A stretch of DNA of 26,372 bases from a virus. Shown here in pieces: positions 395 to 26,372 of the stretch. A program made the position numbers and the translations under genes. Below the pieces are notes generated by a model, which had not been told where the DNA came from, ran no database searches, and saw only the letters and a program-made list of their open reading frames with translations. Every line of letters begins with the position of its first letter. Within the stretch, counting starts at the first letter, position 1. The DNA lies in the IMG/VR virus record IMGVR_UViG_3300005664_000067, positions 1 to 26,372 of that record; one strand, written 5' to 3'.

Positions 395-3340
395 ATGTCA
401 GAAAAACAATATAAAGCAGTTAGCCCGGGAGTAGAGATTAGAGAAATTGATCAGTCTCAACTTCCTGCCGTTTTTGATGAGCAAGGTCCAGTTGTAATTG
501 GACGTGCGGAACGTGGACCGGCAATGGTTCCCGTTAAAGTCAATTCTTATTCAGAATTTGTTGAATTTTTCGGCAATCCTAATGGAAATCTTGCTCTAAC
601 GGACGTATGGAGAGAGAAAGTAACTATTGGTCCTTCTTATGGAGCTTTAGCTGCGCAAGCATCTTTAGCAAATAAAAGCGCTTTAACTTTCGTTCGTTTG
701 TTAGGAACACAAAATGATGAAGCAACTTCTGCGGGTAGAGCAGGATGGGGAGTTGGTGGAGATGGAGATGCAGAAAACCTTTCTTATAACGTAAGAGAAG
801 GTGGAGCATATGGTCTATATCTGATTCCTTCTGTTACATTGCCTGCAACAGTTGCAACAGGGACACTTGCAGCAGTATTTTACCTAAATACTGGTTCTAT
901 AATGCTTAAAGGACAATTATATGGAGCATCTGGCGCATATAGTTCAATTTCTGGGTCTGCTGTATTAATTGAATCCGATACCAATAAACAATTCAGAGCC
1001 TTGATAAAGAATGCTTCTGGTGTAACCGTTGAAGACGTTACATTTGGTATGGATAAATCTGGCGATAAATTCATCCGTAAAGTATTCAATACGAATCCTA
1101 CAAAAATTAACTCTGCTTTGTATACTTCCCCTAAGACATACTTTTTAGGAGAAACCTTCGAAGACTTTATTTATAATGCTGATGAAATGTCAGGTATGCG
1201 TGATTCTACAAGATGGGTAGGTGTTATCTTAGGATTGAAGAACAATTCTACAGGAGATACTCTGTCTAGCAGAAGAATTCCTTCTCAACACGGTAGAACA
1301 GGATGGTTCTTCTCTCAACACTTAGGAAATAACGCAAACTTTGAAATCGATAACGTTCAAAAATTATTCAAAATACACTCTCGTGATTCTGGAGAATGGA
1401 ATCAAGCTCATATCAAAATTTCTATAAGAAATGTAGAAGCAAGTACAAATGTCTACAATCCTTACGGAACCTTTGACGTTGTTATAAGAAAAATTGACGA
1501 CTCTGATCAAAACATTGTAATCATTGAACAATTCAATGGATGCGATTTGAATCCTCAATCTGAAAATTATCTAGCAAAGAAAATTGGTGACAAATATATT
1601 GTATACAGCACTTCTGATCGTAGAAATATAGAATATGGAGATTATGATAATCAATCAAGATATATCAGAGTTGAAATAAATGAAGATGTAGCAGTTGGAG
1701 CAACTGTTCCTGAATTGCTTCCATTCGGTGTATATGGACCTGTGAAATTTAGAGATTTCTCTTTCTCATCGGGATCTATTGGAAACGATTTGGGTATGTC
1801 TGGTTCTATGTTTGGAGAATATGAAAGAGCTGCAACTGGTGCAACTTATCCGAACTATGCTGCGGCATTCGTTATAGGTGGAACTTCTATTGCAGATTCT
1901 GCTGTAAATGCATTATCTGGAACTGGTCCTGTAGTATTCGGTGCTGGACCATCTGGTGCTGTTTCAACAACAATCAAGACTGCTGCTATTCTAATGCCTT
2001 TCCCAAGACTTAGAGTTTCAACACTTACAGGTGCATTAGGTAATCCTAAGAATGCATACTTCGGAGTATTCACAGATAATACATCTGATACTTTCCAAAA
2101 ATCTGTAAGAGATTTAACAAATGTTATGCCAAGAGGTGTAGATTCTTTTGCACCTGATTCTGCGGAAGGAACAGCTTATTCATGGAAGTTCACTTTAGAT
2201 GATTTGAAGTATGTATCTGGTGGAGAAACTGATGTTCAATGGTCATCTGGTTCTAGATTAGCTGGAACATCAATAACATCTATCGGTTCAAATGGATGGA
2301 ACTCTGTACTGACAGGTGGTTGGGATTCTTTCACAACATTATTAGCAGGTGGATTTGACGGATGGGATATTACTGAAATCGAACCATTGAGAAATGATGC
2401 GATGGCAGGAGCAACCGAAAAGACAAATTATGCATATAATACAATAAACAGAGCTATAGAGCTTCTACAATATCCTGAGTTAGTAGAATTCAACGTTGCT
2501 GCAATCCCTGGTGTAAATAAAGCAGGGTTGACAAGAAGACTGATTGAAGTCTGCTCACAAAGAGGAGACGCCTTAGCGGTTATAGATTTGGAAAATGATT
2601 ATAAGCCACGTTCAGAAAATTCTCTTCCAGAATCGTCTAGAAGACCTATTGTGTCAACTGCAATTAGTGCATTGAAAGATAGAGCATTCAATACGAACTA
2701 TGGTTGTGCATATTTCCCATGGGTACAAGGTATTGATCCAAACTCTAACATTCTTACATATCTTCCTCCTTCGGTTATTGCATTAGGAGCATTTGCTTAT
2801 ACAGATAGAGTAGCTGGTTCACACCATGCTCCTGCTGGATTTAGTAGAGGTTCGTTGTCCCAAGGACACGGTGGAATACCTGTAAAAGATGTAACATTGA
2901 AATTATTGCAAAAAGATCGTGATGATCTATATAAAGCAAATATCAATCCCATCTCTTTCCTTGAAAGAGAAGTGGTTATCATGGGACAAAAAACTCTACA
3001 AGTTATTCCATCTGCATTGGATCGTATAAGTGTAAGAAGAGGTCTATTAGATCTTAGAAAGAAATTCTCTAAGATTGCGTCTAGACTTATCTTTGAACCT
3101 AACGTCCAAGATACTTGGAACAGATTCAAAAATCAAGCAGAACCTGTATTGAGAGATATGGTTACTAAATTAGGATTAGATGACTGGAGACTTATATTGG
3201 ATAGTAGAACAACTACTCCTGATTTGATAGATAGAAATATCATCTATGCAAAAGTTTACTTAAAACCAACTCGCGCAGCAGAATTCTTCTATCTTGACTT
3301 TAATATAAGTAATTCAGGTGCCGCTTTTGCGGAAGTGTAA
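395..3340 (+). CDS. Tail sheath protein (gp18-like), unusually large
   Basis: Contractile tail sheath subunit that polymerises around the tail tube and contracts on infection. The N-terminus contains SPGVEIREID followed by GPVVIGRAERGP, the usual opening of phage sheath proteins. The C-terminal part (about residues 690-981) carries the conserved core, ending in a beta strand region near YLDFNISNSG. The start is set by GGAG about 9 bases upstream of ATG 395. The protein is 981 residues; T4 gp18 is 659. The extra length lies in the middle (roughly residues 115-640), which is rich in Gly, Ser and Thr and probably forms surface-exposed insertion domains. The tail tube gene follows after 26 bases, the normal sheath-tube order. 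Confidence 0.93.
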   Translation: MSEKQYKAVSPGVEIREIDQSQLPAVFDEQGPVVIGRAERGPAMVPVKVNSYSEFVEFFGNPNGNLALTDVWREKVTIGPSYGALAAQASLANKSALTFVRLLGTQNDEATSAGRAGWGVGGDGDAENLSYNVREGGAYGLYLIPSVTLPATVATGTLAAVFYLNTGSIMLKGQLYGASGAYSSISGSAVLIESDTNKQFRALIKNASGVTVEDVTFGMDKSGDKFIRKVFNTNPTKINSALYTSPKTYFLGETFEDFIYNADEMSGMRDSTRWVGVILGLKNNSTGDTLSSRRIPSQHGRTGWFFSQHLGNNANFEIDNVQKLFKIHSRDSGEWNQAHIKISIRNVEASTNVYNPYGTFDVVIRKIDDSDQNIVIIEQFNGCDLNPQSENYLAKKIGDKYIVYSTSDRRNIEYGDYDNQSRYIRVEINEDVAVGATVPELLPFGVYGPVKFRDFSFSSGSIGNDLGMSGSMFGEYERAATGATYPNYAAAFVIGGTSIADSAVNALSGTGPVVFGAGPSGAVSTTIKTAAILMPFPRLRVSTLTGALGNPKNAYFGVFTDNTSDTFQKSVRDLTNVMPRGVDSFAPDSAEGTAYSWKFTLDDLKYVSGGETDVQWSSGSRLAGTSITSIGSNGWNSVLTGGWDSFTTLLAGGFDGWDITEIEPLRNDAMAGATEKTNYAYNTINRAIELLQYPELVEFNVAAIPGVNKAGLTRRLIEVCSQRGDALAVIDLENDYKPRSENSLPESSRRPIVSTAISALKDRAFNTNYGCAYFPWVQGIDPNSNILTYLPPSVIALGAFAYTDRVAGSHHAPAGFSRGSLSQGHGGIPVKDVTLKLLQKDRDDLYKANINPISFLEREVVIMGQKTLQVIPSALDRISVRRGLLDLRKKFSKIASRLIFEPNVQDTWNRFKNQAEPVLRDMVTKLGLDDWRLILDSRTTTPDLIDRNIIYAKVYLKPTRAAEFFYLDFNISNSGAAFAEV

Positions 3341-3366
3341 TAGTTATGACAGGAGAAATATAAAAC

Positions 3367-3954
3367 ATGGCAGCACCTAATGTATTCTGGGCAAGTCCAG
3401 TAAATGAACCAAAAAGATCGTACAAATATCTTGTACAATGGGGTAACGGAGATATTCCTTGGTATCTCGTATCGTCTATTGATCTTCCAAAATTAGAAGT
3501 TGGGGAAGCGCAAACTCATGCTCTTAATCATACCTTCAAATGGACCGGAAGACCTACTTGGCAAGATGTTACCATGGAAGTAACAGATTCTGAGTCTCTA
3601 AATGCTATGAAAGTTGTTATGAATAAGTTCAAACAAGCTGGGTATGTTTATCCTGATAGACCTACTCAATATAGAACTATCTCTAAACAAGGATTTATAA
3701 ATGCATTTGGACAATTGGTTATTCAAGAAATAAGTTGGGATGAAAAGATCATAGGAGAATGGAAATTTCTCAATGCTTGGATTAAGAGTATTGATCCAGG
3801 TAAGAAAGCTTATGAATCTGATGATCCTCAAAAAATATCAATTGGTGTTACGTTCGATTGGGCGGAATACGATACAGAAAATGCAGGAACCTTTATAGGG
3901 GAAAATCCATTGCAAGGAGATGTTCCTGGTGGCGGAAATCCTAACGCAGCTTAA
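3367..3954 (+). CDS. Tail tube protein (gp19-like)
   Basis: Major tail tube subunit, 195 residues, stacking as hexameric rings inside the sheath. The protein begins MAAPNVFWASPVNEPKRSY and contains the typical order of gp19-family proteins: a Trp-rich N-terminal strand, a central ITF-like stretch (residues about 55-75, with TWQDVTMEVTDSE) and a C-terminal strand region near ISIGVTFDWAEYD. Its length is close to T4 gp19 (163) with a short Gly/Asn-rich tail. The start follows AGGAGAAA. Immediate downstream position to the sheath gene and upstream position to the chaperone and tape measure genes fits tail-gene order. The name is strong from context, while the sequence match is by pattern only. 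Confidence 0.88.
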   Translation: MAAPNVFWASPVNEPKRSYKYLVQWGNGDIPWYLVSSIDLPKLEVGEAQTHALNHTFKWTGRPTWQDVTMEVTDSESLNAMKVVMNKFKQAGYVYPDRPTQYRTISKQGFINAFGQLVIQEISWDEKIIGEWKFLNAWIKSIDPGKKAYESDDPQKISIGVTFDWAEYDTENAGTFIGENPLQGDVPGGGNPNAA

Positions 3955-3968
3955 TAATTGAGGTATAA

Positions 3969-4793
3969 ATGAGTTCAAATAATAAATTTCCAGAATTGGT
4001 ATTTCCATCATATACAGATATGGTGGATTTACCCTCTGGAGGAAAATTTTATCCTAAAGATCATCCTCTTTACGGTCAAACTTGTGTTGAAATAAAACAA
4101 ATTAGAGGGCCAGAAGAAGATATTTTAACAAATAAGGATTATCTTAGACGAGATATAGCAGTTGATAAACTACTATTATCTCTTATTAAAAATGATAATC
4201 TTAAACAAGATTATGCATATAATAATTTGCTTATTGCGGACCAACTAATGTTGGTCAATCAAGCAAGAATGACAGCATATACATATGATTATTCATGTTC
4301 TATTCGTTGTCCAGCATGCAAAGTGGTATCTAATTTCAAATTTGATCTTAGAAAGCATAAGATTATTTTACCAGATTTATCAAATGATAAAGATGTAAAG
4401 TATGACGAAGACACTAACCAATTTGTGGTTACTATTCCTGATACTAAAATTGTGTTACGATTATTGCCATATACTGTGGGTACACAACGAAAGATAAAGA
4501 ATAAGCTCTTAGCGAAAAAAGATAAAAGTCTTTCCAAAAAAGAGCGCTATGAAGATGTCATATATTCTATAAACGATGAAACGGATAGAAAATACATTTC
4601 AGAATTTTTCAACGTGGTGCCTGCTTTCTATCTAAAGTGGTTAGAAGCTGTAATAGAGGATATCAATATTACTGTTTCTTTTGAACAACAATTCGTATGT
4701 AGTTCTTGTCAATATGATGAAGATCTGGAGCCGCCGTTTACAGTTGATTTTTTATATACACCGAAGATCCAAAGGAAGAAGCTACAAGAGTAA
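3969..4793 (+). CDS. Tail assembly / baseplate hub protein (T4 gp26 family), short form
   Basis: Protein of 274 residues read in the zero frame. The N-terminus has VDLPSGGKFYPKDHPLY, the LPS-x-G-x-x-Y opening I associate with the T4 gp26 baseplate-hub family. Two CxxC pairs (C114/C117 and C244/C247) could bind one zinc ion. It sits between the tail tube and tape measure genes, the place where lambda G-like tail assembly chaperones lie, so it probably handles the tape measure protein during tail assembly. The frame ends at TAA 4791-4793, but a U UUU UUA heptamer at 4748-4754 would move some ribosomes into the -1 frame to make a longer product. The hub-family name and the chaperone role are compatible but not proven. 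Confidence 0.7.
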   Translation: MSSNNKFPELVFPSYTDMVDLPSGGKFYPKDHPLYGQTCVEIKQIRGPEEDILTNKDYLRRDIAVDKLLLSLIKNDNLKQDYAYNNLLIADQLMLVNQARMTAYTYDYSCSIRCPACKVVSNFKFDLRKHKIILPDLSNDKDVKYDEDTNQFVVTIPDTKIVLRLLPYTVGTQRKIKNKLLAKKDKSLSKKERYEDVIYSINDETDRKYISEFFNVVPAFYLKWLEAVIEDINITVSFEQQFVCSSCQYDEDLEPPFTVDFLYTPKIQRKKLQE

Positions 4794-5029
4794 ATAATAA
4801 TGTCTATTTAGGTGTTAATAATTTATTCTTTTCTTTACATGATGCTGATGAGAAAAAGTTGGCATTACATACAGAAATAGCAAATATGCAAGCGCATAAT
4901 TGGGATATAATGTATGCGTATTCTCTCCCTGTTGGTCTTAGAATATTCTATATAAAACAAATAGTAGAGCGATTAAATGCGGAACATGAAGCAAGAAATC
5001 AATCTGCAAGAGAAAGTGCTAAAGTCTAA
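3969..5029 (+). CDS. Tail assembly chaperone, long form by predicted -1 frameshift
   Basis: Predicted fusion made when ribosomes slip one base back at 4748-4754. The first 262 residues (to Leu262, codon 4752-4754) match the short form; reading then resumes at ATA 4754 and runs to TAA 5027-5029, adding 91 residues for a total of 353. The extension begins IYTEDPKEEATRVNNNVYLG and ends in a charged helix (VERLNAEHEARNQSARESA). It has no plausible own start: the first in-frame ATG is at 4886, well inside the open stretch, while the -1 frame is open from 4748. The same arrangement (short G protein, -1 fused GT protein, then tape measure) is known in many tailed phages. Seen: the frames and heptamer. 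Inferred: that slippage occurs. Confidence 0.7.
4748..4754 (+). promoter_or_regulatory. Slippery heptamer T TTT TTA for -1 ribosomal frameshifting
   Basis: In the zero frame the codons are GAT TTT TTA, so the last T of GAT with the next two codons forms X XXY YYZ with X=T, Y=T, Z=A. This is a classical -1 slippery sequence. It lies 39 bases before the zero-frame stop and within six bases of the start of the open stretch in the -1 frame (which opens after TGA 4745-4747). A GGAG at 4727-4730 lies 17 bases upstream; it is somewhat far to act as the stimulatory Shine-Dalgarno element known in dnaX. No obvious strong hairpin follows. Confidence 0.75.
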
Positions 5030-5057
5030 ACTGTGATATAAACTATCACAGTTTTTT
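5028..5057 (+). terminator. Intrinsic terminator after the chaperone gene
   Basis: A perfect stem, ACTGTGATA at 5030-5038 with TATCACAGT at 5044-5052 around a five-base loop, is followed by a run of T (5052-5057). It begins right at the TAA that ends the frameshift extension and precedes the tape measure gene by about 35 bases. This supports 5029 as a true gene end and suggests that chaperone and tape measure genes are in separate or attenuated transcripts. Confidence 0.85.
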
Positions 5058-5092
5058 CATTTAAGCATAATTAAAGCCAGGAATACTAATAA

Positions 5093-9006: not shown

Positions 9007-11339
9007 TGGAGTTTGGGGAATTAGATCAATTTCTTTTGATAAGATATCTAGAAAAAATTGTTTCTTGGCATAAAAATTTCGAAGGGACTAACAATCCGTA
9101 TAACAATCTAATAATGGTTCAAGGCAACAGACCAGATGTTACTTTTAACAGAATACTAAATTGTGATAAAGATGTTTATACATTTTTCAATAATTTAAAT
9201 TCTATACAAAAAGCTACAATGATGCCTAAGTTAGAATTGTATTATATGACAAAGGAAGGATATAAACTGATAAATTTTAGAAATTTTCCTGATTTTGATG
9301 AATTTAGAAATTTTGCAACTAATACTAAAAAAGAATTTTCTTTTAAAGAAGGACAAGAGAAAGAAGATGGTGTAGGATTAAAAAAGATTACAATATCTGA
9401 TAAAAATCAAAATCCCGGATCTGTTAATTTGGAATGTACTGTAGAATTATTTTTCGACAATATTTTAGCATTAACTAATAGTTCTATATTACAATTGATT
9501 CGTGTACCTGAAACACGCTCTAGTAAATCGGAGAGAGATTTTAGACTTAAGTTAGTAGCTGGTTGGCATACTCCGGTAGATGTTAGTAATGAAATATTCT
9601 CAACTAAACAACTTGAGTATATAGAAAGATCAAATGTTGTGTATCTATTGTCTCTTGTTAAACATGATTTATCTTTTAATCAGAATGGATCAATAACTTT
9701 AACAATTCATTATCAAGGAGCTTTAGAAAAATATTTAGCTTCATCATCAGAGATGGATATATTCAGTGTATCATCTGAAGCACAAATGTATAAATTTTTA
9801 TTAGATATTTCAAAAGCAGATACAGCAAACATAAAATATCTGCAAGATTATATAACTCAAACTCATAATAAAATCTTGTATGAAGCACAGTTGGAAACAA
9901 TTTCTAAACAAAGATTAACAGCAACTGAAAAGGCTAGAATAGATTTAGGAGAAAATTTATCTGGAGATAGAAATCAAACATCAGAAGCATTTAAATTAAA
10001 CGCAGAAGCCGAAAAAGAAATTGAAGCTAAATTATCAGAAACTCTAAAAAGAATTTCGGAATATGAATTGTATATTATAAAAACAAAATATTCTAGATTT
10101 TTAACTGCTTTAGAAAATTCTCAAAGATTATTCTTTTTGCCAATATTATCGGATACATACTCTGGTTTACATAAAGATTTATTAACAAATAATGCAAAGT
10201 TTTGGGAACCTGTTTTGGATATAACTCCTATTAATCCTGAAAATTTTGCAAAAACAGAAAATAGAGATGCTTTGTATACATTGCAAAGAAAGAAAAATAT
10301 AGCATATCAAACAATTATAGAACAGATCTATGCGGCAAATGGAGATGAATCAAAATTATCAGAAATAACTGCCAATGCTTTTACATTTGGTTTAGATCAA
10401 CTTGCTCCTAGTTTTAGACAAACTCCTGGGCCTTCTAATAAATATATCGTATATACAACTTTAGGAGATATTGTCAATATTGCTAGAGGATTTGTTGAGA
10501 TTCCAGAAGCTGATCATACTGAGATACTTTTGGGGCCGTGTTTGGTAGGAAAAATATCTATTAATATTGCAAGCTTTCCTATCGCTCTTTCTACTTTTAT
10601 GACTTGGTTTGTTAATTCTGTAATACGAAAAGCTGTTAGAAAGTATCAATTTTGGGATTTCATTTACGATATCATAGGCGCGCTAATTGCTCCTGTTTTA
10701 TTGACAACAGGATTAATTCCTAATCAAGCTGTTAACTTAAATCTATCAACAGCTATCGTCATATCTGATCAACAATTAGAAAAAGGTAAATCTTATTTAG
10801 ATGAAAATATGTTTCATTTTCTTTCTAAAAATATTTTCAATACTCAACAAATTTATTCATATATGGTCTTATATATGAAAGATTATGAAATAGATAAAAG
10901 AGATGGAATACTAGAAGAAGATATGCAAAATGGTATATATCATTTCGGCATATTTAAAGATAGAGGAATTGTTAAAAGCATAGATTTCACTAAATTAGAT
11001 TTTCCTAGATTAAGAGATATGCGTTTAGTAACAGAAGGATTTAACAATGCAGGAGATTTATTGAGAGAACATTACCAAATGACTTTGAAAACTATAGGTT
11101 CTCCTTTATTTATTGTTGGTTCTCAGGTTTATTTTGATGGATCGTATTTAGGAGAGACTGGTAGAAATATAACAGAATTAATAGGTTTAGGTGGATATTA
11201 TATAATCACAAATATAGAGACGACAATTTCTAAGGAATTATATGAAACAGAAGTAAAATGTTTGTGGACAAGTATGCGTAAAACTAGTGCAGAAGGTTAT
11301 AGAATTGTGGATGTTGGAAAATTAGAGGCAGAAAAATGA
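9003..11339 (+). CDS. Large baseplate / virion structural protein
   Basis: Protein of 778 residues with no signature I can name. The N-terminal 270 residues are beta-rich and resemble baseplate or hub proteins (for example VNLECTVELFFDNI and GSITLTIHYQGALEKYL). A charged helical segment (about 290-380) follows, then a stretch with a hydrophobic run near FIYDIIGALIAPVLLTTGL, and a beta-rich C-terminus containing GSQVYFDGSYLGETG and YYIITNIETTI, as expected for a tail hub-like domain. AGGAG precedes the start at 9003; ATG 9006 is an alternative. It lies inside the baseplate operon and overlaps the next gene by four bases. A structural role is inferred from place and composition. Confidence 0.6.
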   Translation: MMEFGELDQFLLIRYLEKIVSWHKNFEGTNNPYNNLIMVQGNRPDVTFNRILNCDKDVYTFFNNLNSIQKATMMPKLELYYMTKEGYKLINFRNFPDFDEFRNFATNTKKEFSFKEGQEKEDGVGLKKITISDKNQNPGSVNLECTVELFFDNILALTNSSILQLIRVPETRSSKSERDFRLKLVAGWHTPVDVSNEIFSTKQLEYIERSNVVYLLSLVKHDLSFNQNGSITLTIHYQGALEKYLASSSEMDIFSVSSEAQMYKFLLDISKADTANIKYLQDYITQTHNKILYEAQLETISKQRLTATEKARIDLGENLSGDRNQTSEAFKLNAEAEKEIEAKLSETLKRISEYELYIIKTKYSRFLTALENSQRLFFLPILSDTYSGLHKDLLTNNAKFWEPVLDITPINPENFAKTENRDALYTLQRKKNIAYQTIIEQIYAANGDESKLSEITANAFTFGLDQLAPSFRQTPGPSNKYIVYTTLGDIVNIARGFVEIPEADHTEILLGPCLVGKISINIASFPIALSTFMTWFVNSVIRKAVRKYQFWDFIYDIIGALIAPVLLTTGLIPNQAVNLNLSTAIVISDQQLEKGKSYLDENMFHFLSKNIFNTQQIYSYMVLYMKDYEIDKRDGILEEDMQNGIYHFGIFKDRGIVKSIDFTKLDFPRLRDMRLVTEGFNNAGDLLREHYQMTLKTIGSPLFIVGSQVYFDGSYLGETGRNITELIGLGGYYIITNIETTISKELYETEVKCLWTSMRKTSAEGYRIVDVGKLEAEK

Positions 11340-12352
11340 TAAGAGAATTATTTGAAAATAATGATACATATGAATCTGCGGTAGTGAATGCTAATTTATT
11401 AGATTTTTCGCAAGTCAGAGAATATGGATTTATTTGTAAAGACAGATTGTATATTCCAAATAATTTATTCATTAAGCCAAGTATAAAACAGCCTGTGATC
11501 AATTTTGTAGATTCAAATGAGGCATTAGACAAGTTGTTGAGTCACATCCGTAACCACTGCACATTTGGTAGAATACCTACAACTTCTAAATTTCACATAA
11601 ACAATATTAAATTGACCAAATCGTACATAAATTCCGAAGATTTATACAAATCGTATATGTTTATATTATTATCCAATTTTTTGGATAAAATGCCGCAAAC
11701 AGACTTCACAACCTTTTCAGAATTTTTTAATAAATTTGTGTATGAAATGTACACAGATATAAAATTTATGAGTGATTTTATGAAGTCAGAAATAGTATCT
11801 ATATTTTCAACAGGATTAGCTTATCAAATATTTGATGAAAAAAAACCTGATATGGAAATTGCAAAATCTTATATACAAGATGATTTCTTCTATATATTCA
11901 AAAACATATGTTTACAATATAATTTCATAATTGACAAACATATGCCCTGGATTATAGTCTACCGTGTGTCGGAAGAATATTTGACCGACAATATCAATAG
12001 ATATAAGAGCGTATATGCATCAGATATGAGCATATTTTTCTCGGTAATGAAGATATTATATACGTATTATGTGCGTAATATTTTGAATCAAGATTTATAT
12101 AATAACGTAGATATAGACAACTTTTCATTGTCTAAAGATGCGATATTGAACTTATACATCGAAAAAAAATTAGAAATCCAGTATATTAAATATACAAAAG
12201 ATGATTTCCTTTCATTAAAGAATTTCTTTAAAACGAATACTCTGTATAACGGACTTGAAAGCAGTGCTCATAAACTCAACAATATTAAACAAGTCAGTGA
12301 TGCCGTTTATGATGATTGGCAACAAATATATCTCGGATTGGGGAATAACTGA
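11336..12352 (+). CDS. Protein of unknown function, likely virion-associated
   Basis: Protein of 338 residues, rich in Phe, Tyr, Ile, Asn and Lys and predicted mostly helical. The part around residues 190-215 (FKNICLQYNFIIDKHMPWIIVYRVS) looks like a stretch I have seen in uncharacterised structural proteins of T4-like phages. I cannot name the family. Its ATG lies in the stop of the baseplate gene (ATGA overlap), so it is co-translated with it. Its 3' end overlaps the next gene in a different frame. It carries none of the polymerase or 3'-5' exonuclease motifs I looked for, so it does not appear to be the missing half of the downstream polymerase. Confidence 0.5.
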   Translation: MIRELFENNDTYESAVVNANLLDFSQVREYGFICKDRLYIPNNLFIKPSIKQPVINFVDSNEALDKLLSHIRNHCTFGRIPTTSKFHINNIKLTKSYINSEDLYKSYMFILLSNFLDKMPQTDFTTFSEFFNKFVYEMYTDIKFMSDFMKSEIVSIFSTGLAYQIFDEKKPDMEIAKSYIQDDFFYIFKNICLQYNFIIDKHMPWIIVYRVSEEYLTDNINRYKSVYASDMSIFFSVMKILYTYYVRNILNQDLYNNVDIDNFSLSKDAILNLYIEKKLEIQYIKYTKDDFLSLKNFFKTNTLYNGLESSAHKLNNIKQVSDAVYDDWQQIYLGLGNN

Positions 12353-13439
12353 TACACTACCTGTAATAGATAATAATATTTACATTTCTGTTTATTTCGA
12401 AAAATCATTTTTATTTAGAGAAGATATTTTATATCTTCCGTGTTTGATTAATTCTTACAATTATCACATCTATTTAACCGGCTATTATAACTTTAACTCA
12501 TTCAAATCCTGTTATGAGAAGTTCAAAGCTGAACTTCGTTCACTATACGTTTGTCGTTTTAATATTTCTGACTTTACTAATTTTTTGAATGAGAAAGTTA
12601 TTCTATCCTTTTACAAAGAGTATAAAGAGGCAATTCTATTCTTATACGAAAAATTCAACTTTGTAGAAGATTATGAGCATAAAGCAAAAGCATTTATAAT
12701 TTCTGAGTATATCAGTTTTGGTAAACTATTATATGATGACAAATATGTGAAAATATCTTTCAATCCTTTTACAGATTATGGAAGATTTGGTTTAAATGCG
12801 AACTCTTTTAATATATTATCTTTAGCCAAAGATAAACGTTATAAATTGGATGCGGATAAAGACTTCGAATTTTTCGAATATGATTACAATGCATTTGAGA
12901 TAAGAGTATTGTTAGCTTTACTGAAAATCAATCAACCTAAAGGAGATTTATACGAAGTATTGCATAATATGTCAAACGATTATAGACAACGTTCTCAGTT
13001 TAAACAATTTCTAATATCTTCAATATATTCGAAAAACGAAGATAAAACAGTTCTCTATAATTTTATGAAAAATAGAGAGTTTTATAAACAATATCAAATT
13101 GTAGAAGGGCATGTAACAAATATCTTTGGAAAGAAGATGGAGTCTGATGAGTATCATATTTTGTCTAGAGTGCTGCAATCTTCGGCAGCGTATATATTAT
13201 ACCAACAAATGTACGAACTAGCTTTCTTTATAGAAACGAATAAATTGAAAACAAGGATAGCATTTTGTATACATGATTCAGTATGTTTGATGATTCATAA
13301 AGATGAACATCAATATATTGATCAATTTAAACAGATATTAGCCACAGTTAATATAAAAAAGTTAAATTATGAATCATTTTTTGAATTGAAAATAAAACGT
13401 GGAAAAAATTACGGAGAAATGAAAGCATATGAAACTTAA
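12300..13439 (+). CDS. Short family A DNA polymerase (polymerase domain only)
   Basis: Template-directed DNA synthesis. From ATG 12300 the protein is 379 residues. The conserved family A order is present: TDYGRFGLNANSFNILSL (about 158-175) matching the T-x-x-GR-L-S...NLQNIP region; motif A DYNAFEIRVL with D195 and E200; motif B with R231, K235 and Y243 (R-x3-K-x7-Y), where the residue matching Phe762 of E. coli Pol I is Ile; QSSAAYILYQQM matching QGTAAD; and motif C IHDS with D326, where Ser replaces the usual Glu. There is no room for a 3'-5' or 5'-3' exonuclease. The start is unsure: 12300, 12309 and 12312 are ATG without a clear ribosome binding site, and TTG 12255 is less likely. Confidence 0.8.
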   Translation: MPFMMIGNKYISDWGITDTLPVIDNNIYISVYFEKSFLFREDILYLPCLINSYNYHIYLTGYYNFNSFKSCYEKFKAELRSLYVCRFNISDFTNFLNEKVILSFYKEYKEAILFLYEKFNFVEDYEHKAKAFIISEYISFGKLLYDDKYVKISFNPFTDYGRFGLNANSFNILSLAKDKRYKLDADKDFEFFEYDYNAFEIRVLLALLKINQPKGDLYEVLHNMSNDYRQRSQFKQFLISSIYSKNEDKTVLYNFMKNREFYKQYQIVEGHVTNIFGKKMESDEYHILSRVLQSSAAYILYQQMYELAFFIETNKLKTRIAFCIHDSVCLMIHKDEHQYIDQFKQILATVNIKKLNYESFFELKIKRGKNYGEMKAYET

Positions 13440-23077: not shown

Positions 23078-23107
23078 CATTTCAAATAAACAAATACGGA
23101 GTAAAAG

Positions 23108-23158
23108 ATGATTAAGTTTATCGACATAATTCAAGATTTATCCTATGGAGATTGTGGT
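23108..23158 (+). repeat. Diverged direct repeat, copy 1 (synthetase codons 1-17)
   Basis: Compared with 23929-23979, 34 of 51 bases agree while 14 of 17 residues agree; most differences are at third codon positions. The copy lies 771 bases upstream of copy 2, with the endonuclease gene between them. Confidence 0.8.
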
Positions 23159-23182
23159 TTTGATAGACTATTTATTGCATGA
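23108..23182 (+). pseudogene. Remnant of the 5' end of purA/purZ, cut off by the endonuclease insertion
   Basis: A 24-codon open frame starts at ATG 23108 (with ACGGAG seven or so bases upstream) and stops at TGA 23180-23182. Its first 17 residues, read MIKFIDIIQDLSYGDCG, match the start of the intact synthetase at 23929 in 14 of 17 positions. Homology ends exactly inside the active-site loop GD-x-GKG; the next residues (FDRLFIA) are unrelated. Its stop overlaps the endonuclease ATG, so ribosomes loading here may pass to the endonuclease gene. Confidence 0.8.
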
Positions 23183-23928
23183 AATGTTTAATTTGTCCAA
23201 ATGAAACTAAAACTAAGAAAGCAATAACTTGTTCTAAAAAATGTGCCTATCAATATAGAAAACTTCTTTTACAAGAAAAACATGGAGTTGAAAATCCTTT
23301 TCAACTCCAGTCAGTGAAAGATAAATCCACAAACACTATCCTTAAAAAATATGGTGTCAGTAACGTATCTAAAAGTGATGAAATTAAGAAAAAGAAGATC
23401 AACACTTGTCATAAAAATTTCGGTGTAGATCATCCAGGTCAAAGTTTAAAAGTTAAAGAAAAAATTAAAGAAATATGTTTATCTAAATATGGTGTTGAGA
23501 ATCCCATGTTTGATGAAACTATAAAAAATAGGTCCGTAACTAATGGTGGAGGTCGAGCTGTTCCTAAAAGATATATAACTAAATATGGTAATGAGATAAT
23601 TGTTCAAGGATCTTATGAATTAGATTTTGTAAAAGAATGTGAACAATTAAATATACCCATTAAAAACGGACCATGTATAAATTATGTATTCAAAGGTAAC
23701 AATAGAAAATATTTTATAGATTTCACGATAGAACATACTGGTACAACAAAAATAGTTGAAATAAAAAGCACCTATTATTTCGAAAAATATAAAGAGGAGA
23801 TATTGTGTAAAAAATTATTTGCAGAAAAATATGCGTTAGAAAACAATATGCTTTATGAACTGATAGTTTTAGATAAAACTCGAAAAGAACGAAAATATTT
23901 ACTAGACGAATTAAATAAGGAGAAATAA
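23158..23928 (+). mobile_element. Endonuclease-encoding insertion in the synthetase gene
   Basis: The left limit is where the remnant stops matching the synthetase (after 23158). The right limit is the TAA at 23926-23928, directly before the intact gene. The incoming DNA probably also carried the new, recoded synthetase 5' end, so the real recombination border may lie within or beyond 23929-23979. There is no space for a self-splicing intron, so this looks like a free-standing homing gene. Confidence 0.6.
23179..23928 (+). CDS. Homing endonuclease, PD-(D/E)XK type with DNA-binding repeats
   Basis: Probable site-specific nuclease that spreads its own gene. Protein of 249 residues. The N-terminus has a zinc-finger-like C3-x2-C6...C18-x3-C22. 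Four short repeats with the core Y/H/F-GV-x-N/H-P follow at about 35, 58, 81 and 104, spaced about 23 residues; such repeats often bind DNA in phage endonucleases. The C-terminal half has a PD-(D/E)XK layout: E147 in GSYELDF, D181 in KYFIDFTI, and E194-x-K196 in VEIKS. It begins in the stop of the synthetase remnant, and its last codons (AAT AAG GAG AAA TAA) supply the ribosome binding site of the intact synthetase gene at 23929. Confidence 0.78.
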   Translation: MKCLICPNETKTKKAITCSKKCAYQYRKLLLQEKHGVENPFQLQSVKDKSTNTILKKYGVSNVSKSDEIKKKKINTCHKNFGVDHPGQSLKVKEKIKEICLSKYGVENPMFDETIKNRSVTNGGGRAVPKRYITKYGNEIIVQGSYELDFVKECEQLNIPIKNGPCINYVFKGNNRKYFIDFTIEHTGTTKIVEIKSTYYFEKYKEEILCKKLFAEKYALENNMLYELIVLDKTRKERKYLLDELNKEK

Positions 23929-23979
23929 ATGATAAAATTTGTGGACATTATACAGGATCTCGCATATGGCGACGCGGGA
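23929..23979 (+). repeat. Diverged direct repeat, copy 2 (synthetase codons 1-17)
   Basis: This is the working N-terminus of the synthetase gene. It encodes MIKFVDIIQDLAYGDAG and is recoded relative to copy 1 at 23108, with many synonymous changes. It continues without a break into the rest of the active-site loop (KGAVAYS). Confidence 0.8.
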
Positions 23980-25044
23980 AAAGGTGCTGTGGCATATTCT
24001 CTTTCTAAAAAACCTGAGTATGATATCTGTATGAGAGTAAATGGCGGGTCTAATGCGGGACATACAATTTACCATGAAGGTAAAAAATTCGTTACTCATC
24101 AAGTTCCAACTGGTATTTTTCACGGTAAAACATGTATAATTGGTAATGGATGTGTTGTTAACGTCTCAAAACTTTTAGATGAGATCAAAGAATTAGAAGA
24201 AGCAGGCATTTCTTGCAAAGGAAGGATTTTCATAGCGCATAATGCTCATATTGTCATGGCTGATCATGTAAAAGAAGAAGAGAACGAATCTGCAATTGGA
24301 ACAACCAAACAAGGGATTGGACCTTGTTATAGAGATAAATACGCTCGCAAAGGATGCAGAGCGATTGATCTTCTGTTTGAGCATATTTTTGAAGGCAAAG
24401 AAGAAGAAGGATATTCATTGATCTATTCAGAAAAATATGGTCCGTTGAGGGATCATGTTATAGATATGATCATTGAAGTGCACCCTGTCTTGTTTGTTTC
24501 AAATAAAAACTACGGTATTCTTGTAGAAGGTGCGCAAGGCTATTATCTAGATATCGATCATGGTGATTATCCATATGTTTCTTCTTCACATGCTTCTGTT
24601 GCAGGAGCATTGCTGAATGGGCTTCCGTTTAATAAAATCAGAAAGGTATATGGAGTTATTAAGGGCTACGAAACTTATGTTGGTGCAATGAAATTCCAAC
24701 CATTAGATCCTATATTTGATAAATTAGGAGACTTGGGACAAGAATTCGGGGCAACAACTGGAAGACGTAGACAGTGCAATTGGTTAAATTTGGATAGACT
24801 TGTAAAAGCTATGCAAGTCAATTGTGTGACTCATTTGATTGTATCTAAAATGGATATTCTTAGAGAATTGAATTTTCAAGAAAATAATCAATATTGGAAA
24901 GTGATCATAGGTTCTATAGAGTTGCCTCTTGTAAATGAAGAGGATTTTTATATGGTTCTTGAAAATACCATCACAACTTATCATTCTTTTGACTTGAAGA
25001 ATCTTCAATACAAGTACGGTCCCGATCAAGAGATAACTGTATGA
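23929..25044 (+). CDS. Adenylosuccinate synthetase homologue (PurA/PurZ type)
   Basis: Joins aspartate to a purine nucleotide at the 6 position with GTP or ATP. PurA acts on IMP; phage PurZ acts on dGMP to make the 2-aminoadenine precursor. The protein is 371 residues: bacterial PurA is about 430, phage PurZ and archaeal PurA about 340-350. Key parts are present: GDAGKG with D15 and K18, NAGHT with H45, IGTTKQGIGP (123-132), ARKGCR (139-144), EGAQG (200-204), DIDHGDYPYVSSS (208-220), ATTGRRR (275-281) and SKMD (306-309). D15 corresponds to the catalytic Asp of PurA; known PurZ has Ser there, favouring PurA chemistry. However, DLAYG resembles the PurZ DLQFG opening, and the PurA loop GPFPTE is replaced by a MKFQPLD stretch. 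AAGGAG precedes the start. Confidence 0.88.
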   Translation: MIKFVDIIQDLAYGDAGKGAVAYSLSKKPEYDICMRVNGGSNAGHTIYHEGKKFVTHQVPTGIFHGKTCIIGNGCVVNVSKLLDEIKELEEAGISCKGRIFIAHNAHIVMADHVKEEENESAIGTTKQGIGPCYRDKYARKGCRAIDLLFEHIFEGKEEEGYSLIYSEKYGPLRDHVIDMIIEVHPVLFVSNKNYGILVEGAQGYYLDIDHGDYPYVSSSHASVAGALLNGLPFNKIRKVYGVIKGYETYVGAMKFQPLDPIFDKLGDLGQEFGATTGRRRQCNWLNLDRLVKAMQVNCVTHLIVSKMDILRELNFQENNQYWKVIIGSIELPLVNEEDFYMVLENTITTYHSFDLKNLQYKYGPDQEITV

Positions 25045-25265
25045 GTGATTGGATAAGTGTACATGTACACGAAGATGATCCTATTTATATTTTTTGCATA
25101 AATAATGAAAAGCTAGCTATTGTATATTTCATTGGTGGACATGTAGAAAGACCTGATGAATGGGTTATTAAATTCAAAGAAGATATGCATTGTCAAGGAA
25201 ATCGCACAACATTCTCTTTAGAAAGAGCCAAACAAATTGTTGAAGAACACTTCGGAGTAATATGA
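25041..25265 (+). CDS. Small protein of unknown function
   Basis: Protein of 74 residues with a beta-rich N-terminal half (WISVHVHEDDPIYIFCIN, LAIVYFIGGHV) and a C-terminal helix (LERAKQIVEEHF). The ATG overlaps the synthetase stop (ATGA), and its own stop overlaps the next start, so translation of the three genes is probably coupled. Family not recognised. Confidence 0.6.
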   Translation: MSDWISVHVHEDDPIYIFCINNEKLAIVYFIGGHVERPDEWVIKFKEDMHCQGNRTTFSLERAKQIVEEHFGVI

Positions 25266-25504
25266 GTGACTTACGTAAAGTTGAAAAATTAGACCCAGAA
25301 GATCTTACATGGGCTACATTAAGAATGGCAGATTTACAAATTGGAGATATTTTTAGATTAAGTGAATCCGATACGAAATGTTTCGGAGAATTTAGAGCAG
25401 ATGGTGAACCTTATAAAAATGAAGAAGGTGTTTATACTATTGTAGCCATGCCATTTGATATAGAAACTTGGACAGAAATTCCAATGAAGAAAATAAATGA
25501 ATAA
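25262..25504 (+). CDS. Small acidic protein of unknown function
   Basis: Protein of 80 residues with DLQIGDIFRLSES in the middle and YTIVAMPFDIETWTEIP near the end, suggesting a small beta barrel. It is acidic overall. It overlaps its neighbours on both sides by a few bases (ATGA at the start, eight bases at the end), placing it in the synthetase-MazG operon. No family recognised. Confidence 0.6.
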   Translation: MSDLRKVEKLDPEDLTWATLRMADLQIGDIFRLSESDTKCFGEFRADGEPYKNEEGVYTIVAMPFDIETWTEIPMKKINE

Positions 25505-25808
25505 AATATATCCATACGAAATAATAGCCATATCAAAAGCTTATGATAAGAAAACTTCTATACAAAAAGTTTTAAAACTAGTAGAAGAAGTCGGTGAACT
25601 AGCTCAAGCAATTCTTATAAATGAAGAAGCTCATGGCACTCAGTATAGAGATAAATCACAATTTTCAATCGTAGAAGAACTTGCTGATGTTTATCTTTGT
25701 TTGTTCGCTATTTTTCCAGGATATGATATATCCGAAGAAGCTTTTAATGAAGAAGTTGGTAAAAAATTAAATAAATGGACAAACAAAATAGGATTAACAA
25801 ATGAGTAG
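25497..25808 (+). CDS. MazG-like nucleotide pyrophosphohydrolase
   Basis: Probably hydrolyses a nucleoside triphosphate to the monophosphate and pyrophosphate. Protein of 103 residues, all helical. The MazG metal site is visible: KLVEEVGELAQAI with E31 and E34, and VEELADVYLCLFAI with E61 and D64, matching the E-x2-E ... E-x2-D pattern. In known 2-aminoadenine phages a MazG-like enzyme turns dGTP into dGMP for PurZ, so its place three genes after the synthetase is suggestive. General house-cleaning of nucleotides is the simpler reading. The start at 25497 overlaps the preceding stop. Confidence 0.82.
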   Translation: MNKIYPYEIIAISKAYDKKTSIQKVLKLVEEVGELAQAILINEEAHGTQYRDKSQFSIVEELADVYLCLFAIFPGYDISEEAFNEEVGKKLNKWTNKIGLTNE

Positions 25809-26372
25809 AATAATAATTGGTTATCACAATAATTGCAACGATGGATTTGGTGCAGCGTATGTTGCATATTTGCATTACAAAAAATTAGGATTGTTAGATC
25901 AAGTTGAATTTGTTCCTATTAATCCTAGAGCAACTCCTGATATAGATGTTACTGGTTGTAATGTTGTAATTTTCGATGTCTGCTTAGATAAAGAAGCATT
26001 ACATAAATGGAAAGAAGTAGCAGTCTCGTTCAAGGTAATCGATCATCACGTATCAAATCAACGGGAATTTGGATATCTTGATTACTGCCATTTCGATATG
26101 ACTCACTCAGGAGTTGGACTTGCTTGGCGCCACTATAATCCTGATATAGCTCCTCCGTGGTGGGTTGATTATATAGAAGATAGAGATTTATGGACAAAGA
26201 AACTTCCTATGCATGAAGATGTTTGTGCATTATTGTTATCAACTGAACCTACTTTTGAAGCTTATGATGAGATTGCTTCTATGACAGTTGAAAAAGCTGC
26301 CGAGGCAGGCAAATATATTGCTAAAGCTGATATTGCAAAAATCAATAGAGCAGTTCATAGTTCATCGGCTAT
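25801..26372 (+). CDS. DHH-family phosphoesterase, N-terminal part (runs off the window)
   Basis: Likely metal-dependent phosphoesterase acting on small nucleic-acid or nucleotide substrates. The first 190 residues are present and the frame is still open at the right edge. DHH-family motifs appear in order: GYHNNCNDGFGAA (H9, D14), VIFDVC (D59), the name-giving VIDHHVS (D81-H82-H83), and YIEDRDLW with the fourth Asp. The usual HADADG of motif I is changed to HNNCNDG, which is common in phage and NrnB-like members. The ATG overlaps the MazG stop. The C-terminal DHHA1 domain would lie outside the window, so substrate type cannot be judged. Confidence 0.85.
   Translation, partial: MSRIIIGYHNNCNDGFGAAYVAYLHYKKLGLLDQVEFVPINPRATPDIDVTGCNVVIFDVCLDKEALHKWKEVAVSFKVIDHHVSNQREFGYLDYCHFDMTHSGVGLAWRHYNPDIAPPWWVDYIEDRDLWTKKLPMHEDVCALLLSTEPTFEAYDEIASMTVEKAAEAGKYIAKADIAKINRAVHSSSA

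Follow-up and report, generated by a model that had tools for sequence, protein, structure and literature searches.

How can a selfish nuclease gene lie within an essential gene and leave that gene with an intact reading frame? The question is raised by a purA-like locus in the window analyzed here, by which we mean the whole of a metagenomic contig of 26,372 nucleotides (IMGVR_UViG_3300005664_000067, positions 1 to 26,372). The window covers part of the genome of a tailed phage with a contractile tail and carries sheath, tube and replication genes, an RNR and a Dam-like methylase. Between 23108 and 25044 it holds, in this order, the remnant of a purA start (copy 1), an endonuclease gene, and a complete 371-codon synthetase gene that opens with a second version of the same start (copy 2). 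As we read the sequence, it is highly probable that a free-standing homing-endonuclease-like gene (HEG) inserted at purA codon 17/18 (GDxG/KGK), carrying a ribosome-binding site and a recoded start with it; cutting of the target, resistance of the rebuilt gene and homing would complete this picture.

Anatomy of the interrupted gene

The duplication described in an earlier note on this DNA proved exact: 17 synthetase codons are doubled around the endonuclease gene, with 14/17 residues and 34/51 bases identical, and copy 1 does break off inside the GD-x-GKG loop, after GDCG (Table 1). The remnant ORF encodes MIKFIDIIQDLSYGDCG and then FDRLFIA before its stop, homology ending at the break between the two, while the rebuilt protein begins MIKFVDIIQDLAYGDAG and continues with KGAV. 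Non-coding sequence amounts to ~20 bases between remnant and HEG and to none past copy 2, and the 3' end of the HEG supplies the ribosome-binding site of the rebuilt gene, as had been noted, through its last codons, AAG GAG. Translation of the HEG is itself probably coupled to the remnant, because the remnant stop and HEG start overlap in ATGA (23179-23182) and the sequence before the HEG shows no recognizable ribosome-binding site.

Table 1. Coordinates of the features of the interrupted purA locus in the window.
Feature	Position	Strand	Basis
Ribosome-binding site GGAG upstream of the remnant, presumably purA's original	23098..23101	+	sequence
Copy 1: remnant of the original purA-like gene, its first 17 codons	23108..23158	+	tblastn, codon comparison, motif search, relatives
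Remnant ORF, 24 codons; stop TGA overlaps HEG start codon (ATGA)	23108..23182	+	sequence
Putative inserted unit, 821 bp: short leader, HEG and 17 recoded codons	23159..23979	+	anatomy, L271/L287 comparison
HEG, 249 aa	23179..23928	+	family matches
Ribosome-binding site AAGGAG for the rebuilt gene, within the final HEG codons	23917..23922	+	sequence
Copy 2: rebuilt, recoded first 17 codons; phage-atypical codon usage	23929..23979	+	codon comparison, codon usage
Adenylosuccinate synthetase (PurA/PurZ family), 371 aa, reading frame intact	23929..25044	+	PF00709 E=5e-83
Codon 18 to end; usual phage codon usage; probable native part of the gene	23980..25044	+	codon usage

That the gene is kept whole without an intron or intein is borne out. 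The window has no Rfam match to an intron RNA, and so the HEG does not belong to a group I intron; stop codons flank the HEG at both ends, at odds with the in-frame fusion to both gene parts that marks an intein. The HEG is an endonuclease-family protein outside either kind of element and, in that sense, free-standing. One might still suppose that the interruption is removed in expression, by a self-splicing intron, an intein or ribosome bypass that joins copy 1 to the downstream sequence, with copy 2 incidental. Although group I introns often split phage genes, and short 5' exons are easily overlooked (as in a terminase case, PMC10448857), the sparse non-coding sequence, the Rfam result, and a downstream frame with its own start and ribosome-binding site make this reading extremely improbable.

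The surroundings of the locus also bear description. The purA-like gene forms a nucleotide-metabolism cluster with MazG-like and DHH phosphoesterase genes (23929-26370). Elsewhere in the window, at 11336-13439, two overlapping ORFs of 338 aa and 394 aa, the second of which matches the C-terminal part of DNA polymerase A, are possibly a split or frameshifted polymerase.

Which of the two starts is native

The two copies match at 13, 16 and 5 of 17 first, second and third codon positions, so that their differences fall mainly on the third. Their kinship is detectable by search: the full synthetase protein finds copy 1 in the window by tblastn at E=5e-4 (self-comparison, E=3e-6), and the window contains two instances of the motif pattern, against none in 100 shuffles. 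When 2.9 million viral contigs were searched for the motif, 67 distinct uninterrupted starts of such genes emerged. Immediately ahead of the final Gly at the break, 57 of them have Cys, 8 have Ser, 2 have Thr and 0 have Ala, and KGK follows the break in every one. Copy 1 (GDCG) agrees with these relatives, whereas copy 2 (GDAG, then KGA) does not. Both copies also carry a Gln that is present in no relative (66/67 have Val there), and because of this shared residue we take them to be sisters rather than a native start paired with one from a remote family.

Codon usage separates the two copies further. Given the amino acids encoded, copy 2 is atypical for this phage (P=0.0017), while copy 1 (P=0.19) and codons 18-34 (P=0.56) are not; copy 2 is also more extreme than any other segment of the gene and than all of 21 other gene starts. 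Atypical usage is confined to the 17 rebuilt codons and stops at the point that corresponds to the end of the remnant. This boundary involves one short segment and is supporting evidence rather than proof; it favors the proposal of the earlier note that the element brought a recoded replacement of the first codons.

Searches of IMG/VR with the RNR, the upstream gene and the HEG revealed no close uninterrupted relative of the window phage and returned one distant RNR only; the window DNA has no match among known phages and one chance match among bacterial genomes, and its best purA relatives are ~50% identical. Analogy with the loci described below, together with codon usage and the 17-codon comparison, supports copy 1 as the native start. 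Among the related loci, L071 (10001-13282) contains an RNR 63-66% identical to that of the window, with a ~1.2 kb interruption near residue 380 that may be an intron, an intein or a HEG insertion.

An uninterrupted near-twin and other purA cases

Because no close uninterrupted relative of the window phage came to light, the hypothesis was tried on related loci, all of them, like the window, known from metagenomic contigs. Scanning ~290 related viral purA loci for partial copies gave 3 further independent purA cases (L120, L271 and L258), whose nucleases are unrelated.

The clearest is L271, in which a 46-codon remnant ending HNAG/ is followed by a GIY-YIG gene with NUMOD3 and then by a full purA. 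The uninterrupted L287 belongs to the same phage type as L271, the two being 97-98% identical across >5 kb. Compared with the gene of L287, the L271 remnant is 97.1% identical, the rebuilt codons 1-46 77.4%, and codons 47 to the end 98.2%; remnant and rest of gene together make up the L287 gene with zero codons missing. Conversion also takes in about 15 bases past the break, after which the gene body is 98% native. By comparison with L287, therefore, the L271 insert is made up of the nuclease, a short leader and a rewritten start, all set in at a single point; the insertion is precise, and the boundary between native and foreign sequence lies at the break to within a few bases. The site is polymorphic for presence or absence, L271 being occupied and L287, L183 and L186 empty. 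Relative to L287, L271 has a second, related GIY-YIG gene, in a zinc-knuckle gene (reverse-strand coordinates 3549-4951), where the host gene is truncated at its C-terminus and a C-terminal remnant lies downstream.

In L120, a 56-codon remnant ending FVTHQ/ precedes an HNH/endonuclease VII-like gene and then a full gene with a different start, an arrangement also found in L153, the two assemblies agreeing exactly across 4.2 kb. Compared with the uninterrupted L105 at the protein level, the L120 remnant is 93-96% identical and the rebuilt start 72%, and the 3' half is closest to L105. In trees, remnant and 3' part are each sister to L105 (support 88.7 and 98.9), and a tree uniting the rebuilt start with L105 is rejected (AU p=0.011). 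The foreign tract in L120 probably extends ~50 codons past the break, and variable tract lengths of this kind would be expected after repair of a cut from a donor template. L258 is less tidy. Its remnant ends GDCGK/, practically at the site used in the window, and is followed by a GIY-YIG gene with helix-turn-helix repeats, different from that of L271, and by a full gene reading GDEAKGK. In its nearest 3' relative, L284, the residues read GDEG, as in the rebuilt copy, while part of the bases match the remnant; the site region of the rebuilt type is best matched by another phage type, L213. Uninterrupted relatives had been predicted to resemble copy 1 and not copy 2, and this holds for L271/L287 and L120/L105 and is mixed for L258, no close relative of the window having been found on which to judge it.

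These loci bear on the possibility that the nuclease came with a complete foreign synthetase gene, copy 1 being the last trace of the native one. The synonymous sites of the two copies are indeed very different, and the foreign tracts of L120 and L258 probably reach tens of codons past the break. But wholesale replacement fits poorly with the window, where codon usage returns to normal at codon 18, and with L271, where native sequence resumes so soon after the break, and we regard it as quite improbable.

Recurrence in other phage genes

At ~10 further places, in related and unrelated phages, a nuclease gene lies inside another gene whose start has been rewritten. L246 has this arrangement in nrdB, with an HNH-type gene and a short remnant. 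A second sample, of viral loci chosen for GIY-YIG genes and compared with itself, added L320 (primase), L324, L346, L353, L363 and L386, the last a helicase-like gene broken at LATG/VGKT. When the gap ORFs were read directly, GIY-YIG motifs were plain in L320, L346, L353, L363 and L386, while that of L324 resembles, by eye only, the HNH-type gene of L246. L353 is doubtful as a case, similar short ORFs occurring there in tandem. The primase-gene insert of L320 (77-1351) contains three ORFs, the GIY-YIG gene last, and passengers may thus be carried.

A directional control with identical thresholds upstream and downstream (459 loci, 4.4 Mb) found 13 N-terminal partial copies upstream of genes vs 2 downstream, and an opposite skew for C-terminal partial copies, 8 downstream vs 1 upstream; these counts are not population frequencies, because the loci were chosen for purA or endonucleases. 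An endonuclease is flanked by 11 of the 13 upstream N-terminal copies (in purA, nrdB, primase, a helicase-like gene and others), and 2 have none between. A fungal-type 3' arrangement is seen in L410 (reverse strand, 938-5077), where a GIY-YIG gene and a C-terminal remnant of 62 residues (90% identical) come after an SbcC/gp46-like gene. Upstream partial copies in L003, L005 and L230 (neighboring genes with similar starts), L208 (antisense) and L465 (a repeat) were rejected as cases, and 94 kb of T4 contained no rebuilt gene ends.

Could the start of the gene simply have been duplicated locally, with an endonuclease later landing between the copies, functionally unlinked? Partial duplications are known in phages, and the two upstream copies that flank no endonuclease are of the kind this would leave. 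The upstream excess and the endonucleases between nearly all of the copies argue against it, as does the coincidence, within a few bases, of insertion and recoding boundary in L271, and this reading, already disfavored, is very improbable.

Is the rewriting selected?

Remnant and rebuilt copy of L258 share 18/21 comparable codons upstream vs 2/8 in the last ten before the break, and those of L271 share 14/29 vs 1/7 near the break; such enrichment of recoding near the break is clear in these two only. The window copies, whose longest in-register exact run is 5, are less alike than random codon choice predicts (34 identical bases, median 38, P=0.017). In L271, L324 and L363, divergence equals random codon choice, that is, plain saturation. 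With six cases combined, recoding departs from random codon choice at P=0.02, and selection on recoding is, from these sequences, partly supported.

These results must be set against the idea that the remnant serves mainly as a short leader giving the nuclease the ribosome-binding site of its target gene, with the recoding of copy 2 due to unselected drift. The overlap of remnant stop and HEG start, and the missing ribosome-binding site before the window HEG, fit a leader role, and the saturated divergence in three of the loci fits drift. However, the HEGs of L120 and L258 each come with their own ribosome-binding site, so that a leader cannot be a general requirement, and drift does not predict the excess divergence in the window; overall we find this explanation unlikely. 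The recurrence of the arrangement with several nuclease families and target genes suggests a strategy rather than an accident. We lean, with some reservation, towards a widespread phage class of natural "recoded rescue" elements, with nucleases of DUF7487/PD-(D/E)XK-like, HNH and GIY-YIG types near the starts of essential genes, in which selection would maintain rewriting against self-cutting, short-circuit repair and excision. L271 and L287 offer a clean natural pair for asking how much recoding suffices and what force maintains it.

A model for insertion and its relation to known systems

We speculate that the nuclease cuts uninterrupted alleles at the junction, and that the broken ends are then repaired from an element-bearing phage, so that nuclease and new start are copied in together. 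Copying would be possible because each side of the cut has its counterpart in the donor, one in the remnant and the other in the downstream gene body. The gene would be restored by its new start and not by splicing, the old 17-codon start now leading into the nuclease gene. Divergence of the rebuilt start might serve in three ways: it would destroy the cut site and so prevent self-cutting; it would keep a broken end from pairing with the rebuilt copy, a repair that skips the nuclease; and it would prevent direct-repeat recombination from deleting the element. Whether the insertion point is also the cut site is uncertain, because the free-standing endonucleases of T4 usually make their cuts at a distance of hundreds of bases or more from the genes that encode them (PMC2988022).

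The closest published system is found in fungal mitochondria, where mobile ORFs with a foreign C-terminus interrupt atp6 of Allomyces macrogynus and atp6, atp9, cox2 and nad3 of Glomus sp.; compared with uninterrupted relatives, native ends are 91-98% identical and carried ends 64-81% (PMC3630166). There too a free-standing endonuclease gene brings a divergent copy of the severed gene part and the native end remains as a remnant, and in the window likewise a severed gene end is doubled around an endonuclease ORF, at the 5' rather than the 3' side. The phage arrangement appears to be the 5' mirror image: the fungal elements replace the C-terminus and leave the remnant downstream, whereas the phage elements replace the N-terminus, with ribosome-binding site and start, and leave the remnant upstream. 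The nucleases differ as well, being LAGLIDADG and GIY-YIG in the fungal elements and DUF7487/PD-(D/E)XK-like, HNH and GIY-YIG in phages.

In phages, the part of the T4 review cited here describes Seg and Mob endonucleases (intronless homing) that are likewise free-standing, co-oriented with essential nucleotide-metabolism genes and users of neighboring expression signals, and holds that host expression signals within endonuclease genes favor their retention; unlike the elements described here, they lie mostly between genes and cut at a distance, and that part describes no rebuilt gene end (PMC2988022). The split genes it lists are nrdA with mobE and gene 60 with mobA (PMC2988022). mobE in nrdA of Aeh1 and mobA between genes 39 and 60 of T4 resemble our case in placing an endonuclease gene in a critical gene without an intron, but there the gene is left in separate coding pieces, whereas the window gene is made whole by a duplicated, rewritten start. 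An engineered parallel is HomeR, a cassette with 22-27 re-coded codons at an essential-gene cut site, in which foreign sequence prevents gene conversion (PMC7968924). In HomeR a nuclease-guiding cassette sits at such a site and its re-coded severed part resists cutting and limits unwanted recombination (PMC7968924), features that the phage elements would share; HomeR is a man-made Cas9 system in Drosophila whose recoded end is the 3' one, where the phage elements are natural and recode the 5' end, and the likeness is one of logic only.

The earlier note had called the arrangement uncommon. We found no description of the phage 5' form in the open-access literature, where the fungal 3' version was found, and priority is accordingly not guaranteed. 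The word needs qualification: the same layout has turned up in several genes of phages, with nucleases of several families, and has its mirror image in fungal mitochondria. What it may offer is another solution for a selfish nuclease inside an essential gene, namely a rewritten replacement of the severed part instead of splicing out. If this is true, rewriting would play, in the DNA itself, the part that introns play in RNA and inteins in protein. There is also a caution for annotation: short N-terminal ORFs before HEGs may be gene remnants, and phage genes adjacent to HEGs can be chimeric.

The nuclease and synthetase of the window

The HEG matches the phage homing-endonuclease families phrog_3339 (E=4e-17), Pfam DUF7487 (E=2e-24) and phrog_12131. 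Its N-terminus is Cys-rich, it carries KYGV(E/S)N repeats (DUF7487), and an E / D / ExK pattern in the C-terminus resembles a PD-(D/E)XK nuclease; there is a weak TnsA_N-like (PD-(D/E)XK) match in this region (E=5e-4), the catalytic motif being judged by eye. A single-sequence structure model (pLDDT 42) was too poor to use. A homologue in Salmonella phage Mutine carries the annotation SSF52980, and those DUF7487 relatives in cultured phages that were checked are located between genes. The synthetase belongs to the PurA/PurZ family by its PF00709 match and GDxGKG loop. In the intact protein this loop reads GDAGKGA (23980-23990), Ala replacing the last Lys of GKGK just 3' of the break, a residue that is kept in 67/67 of the relatives compared.
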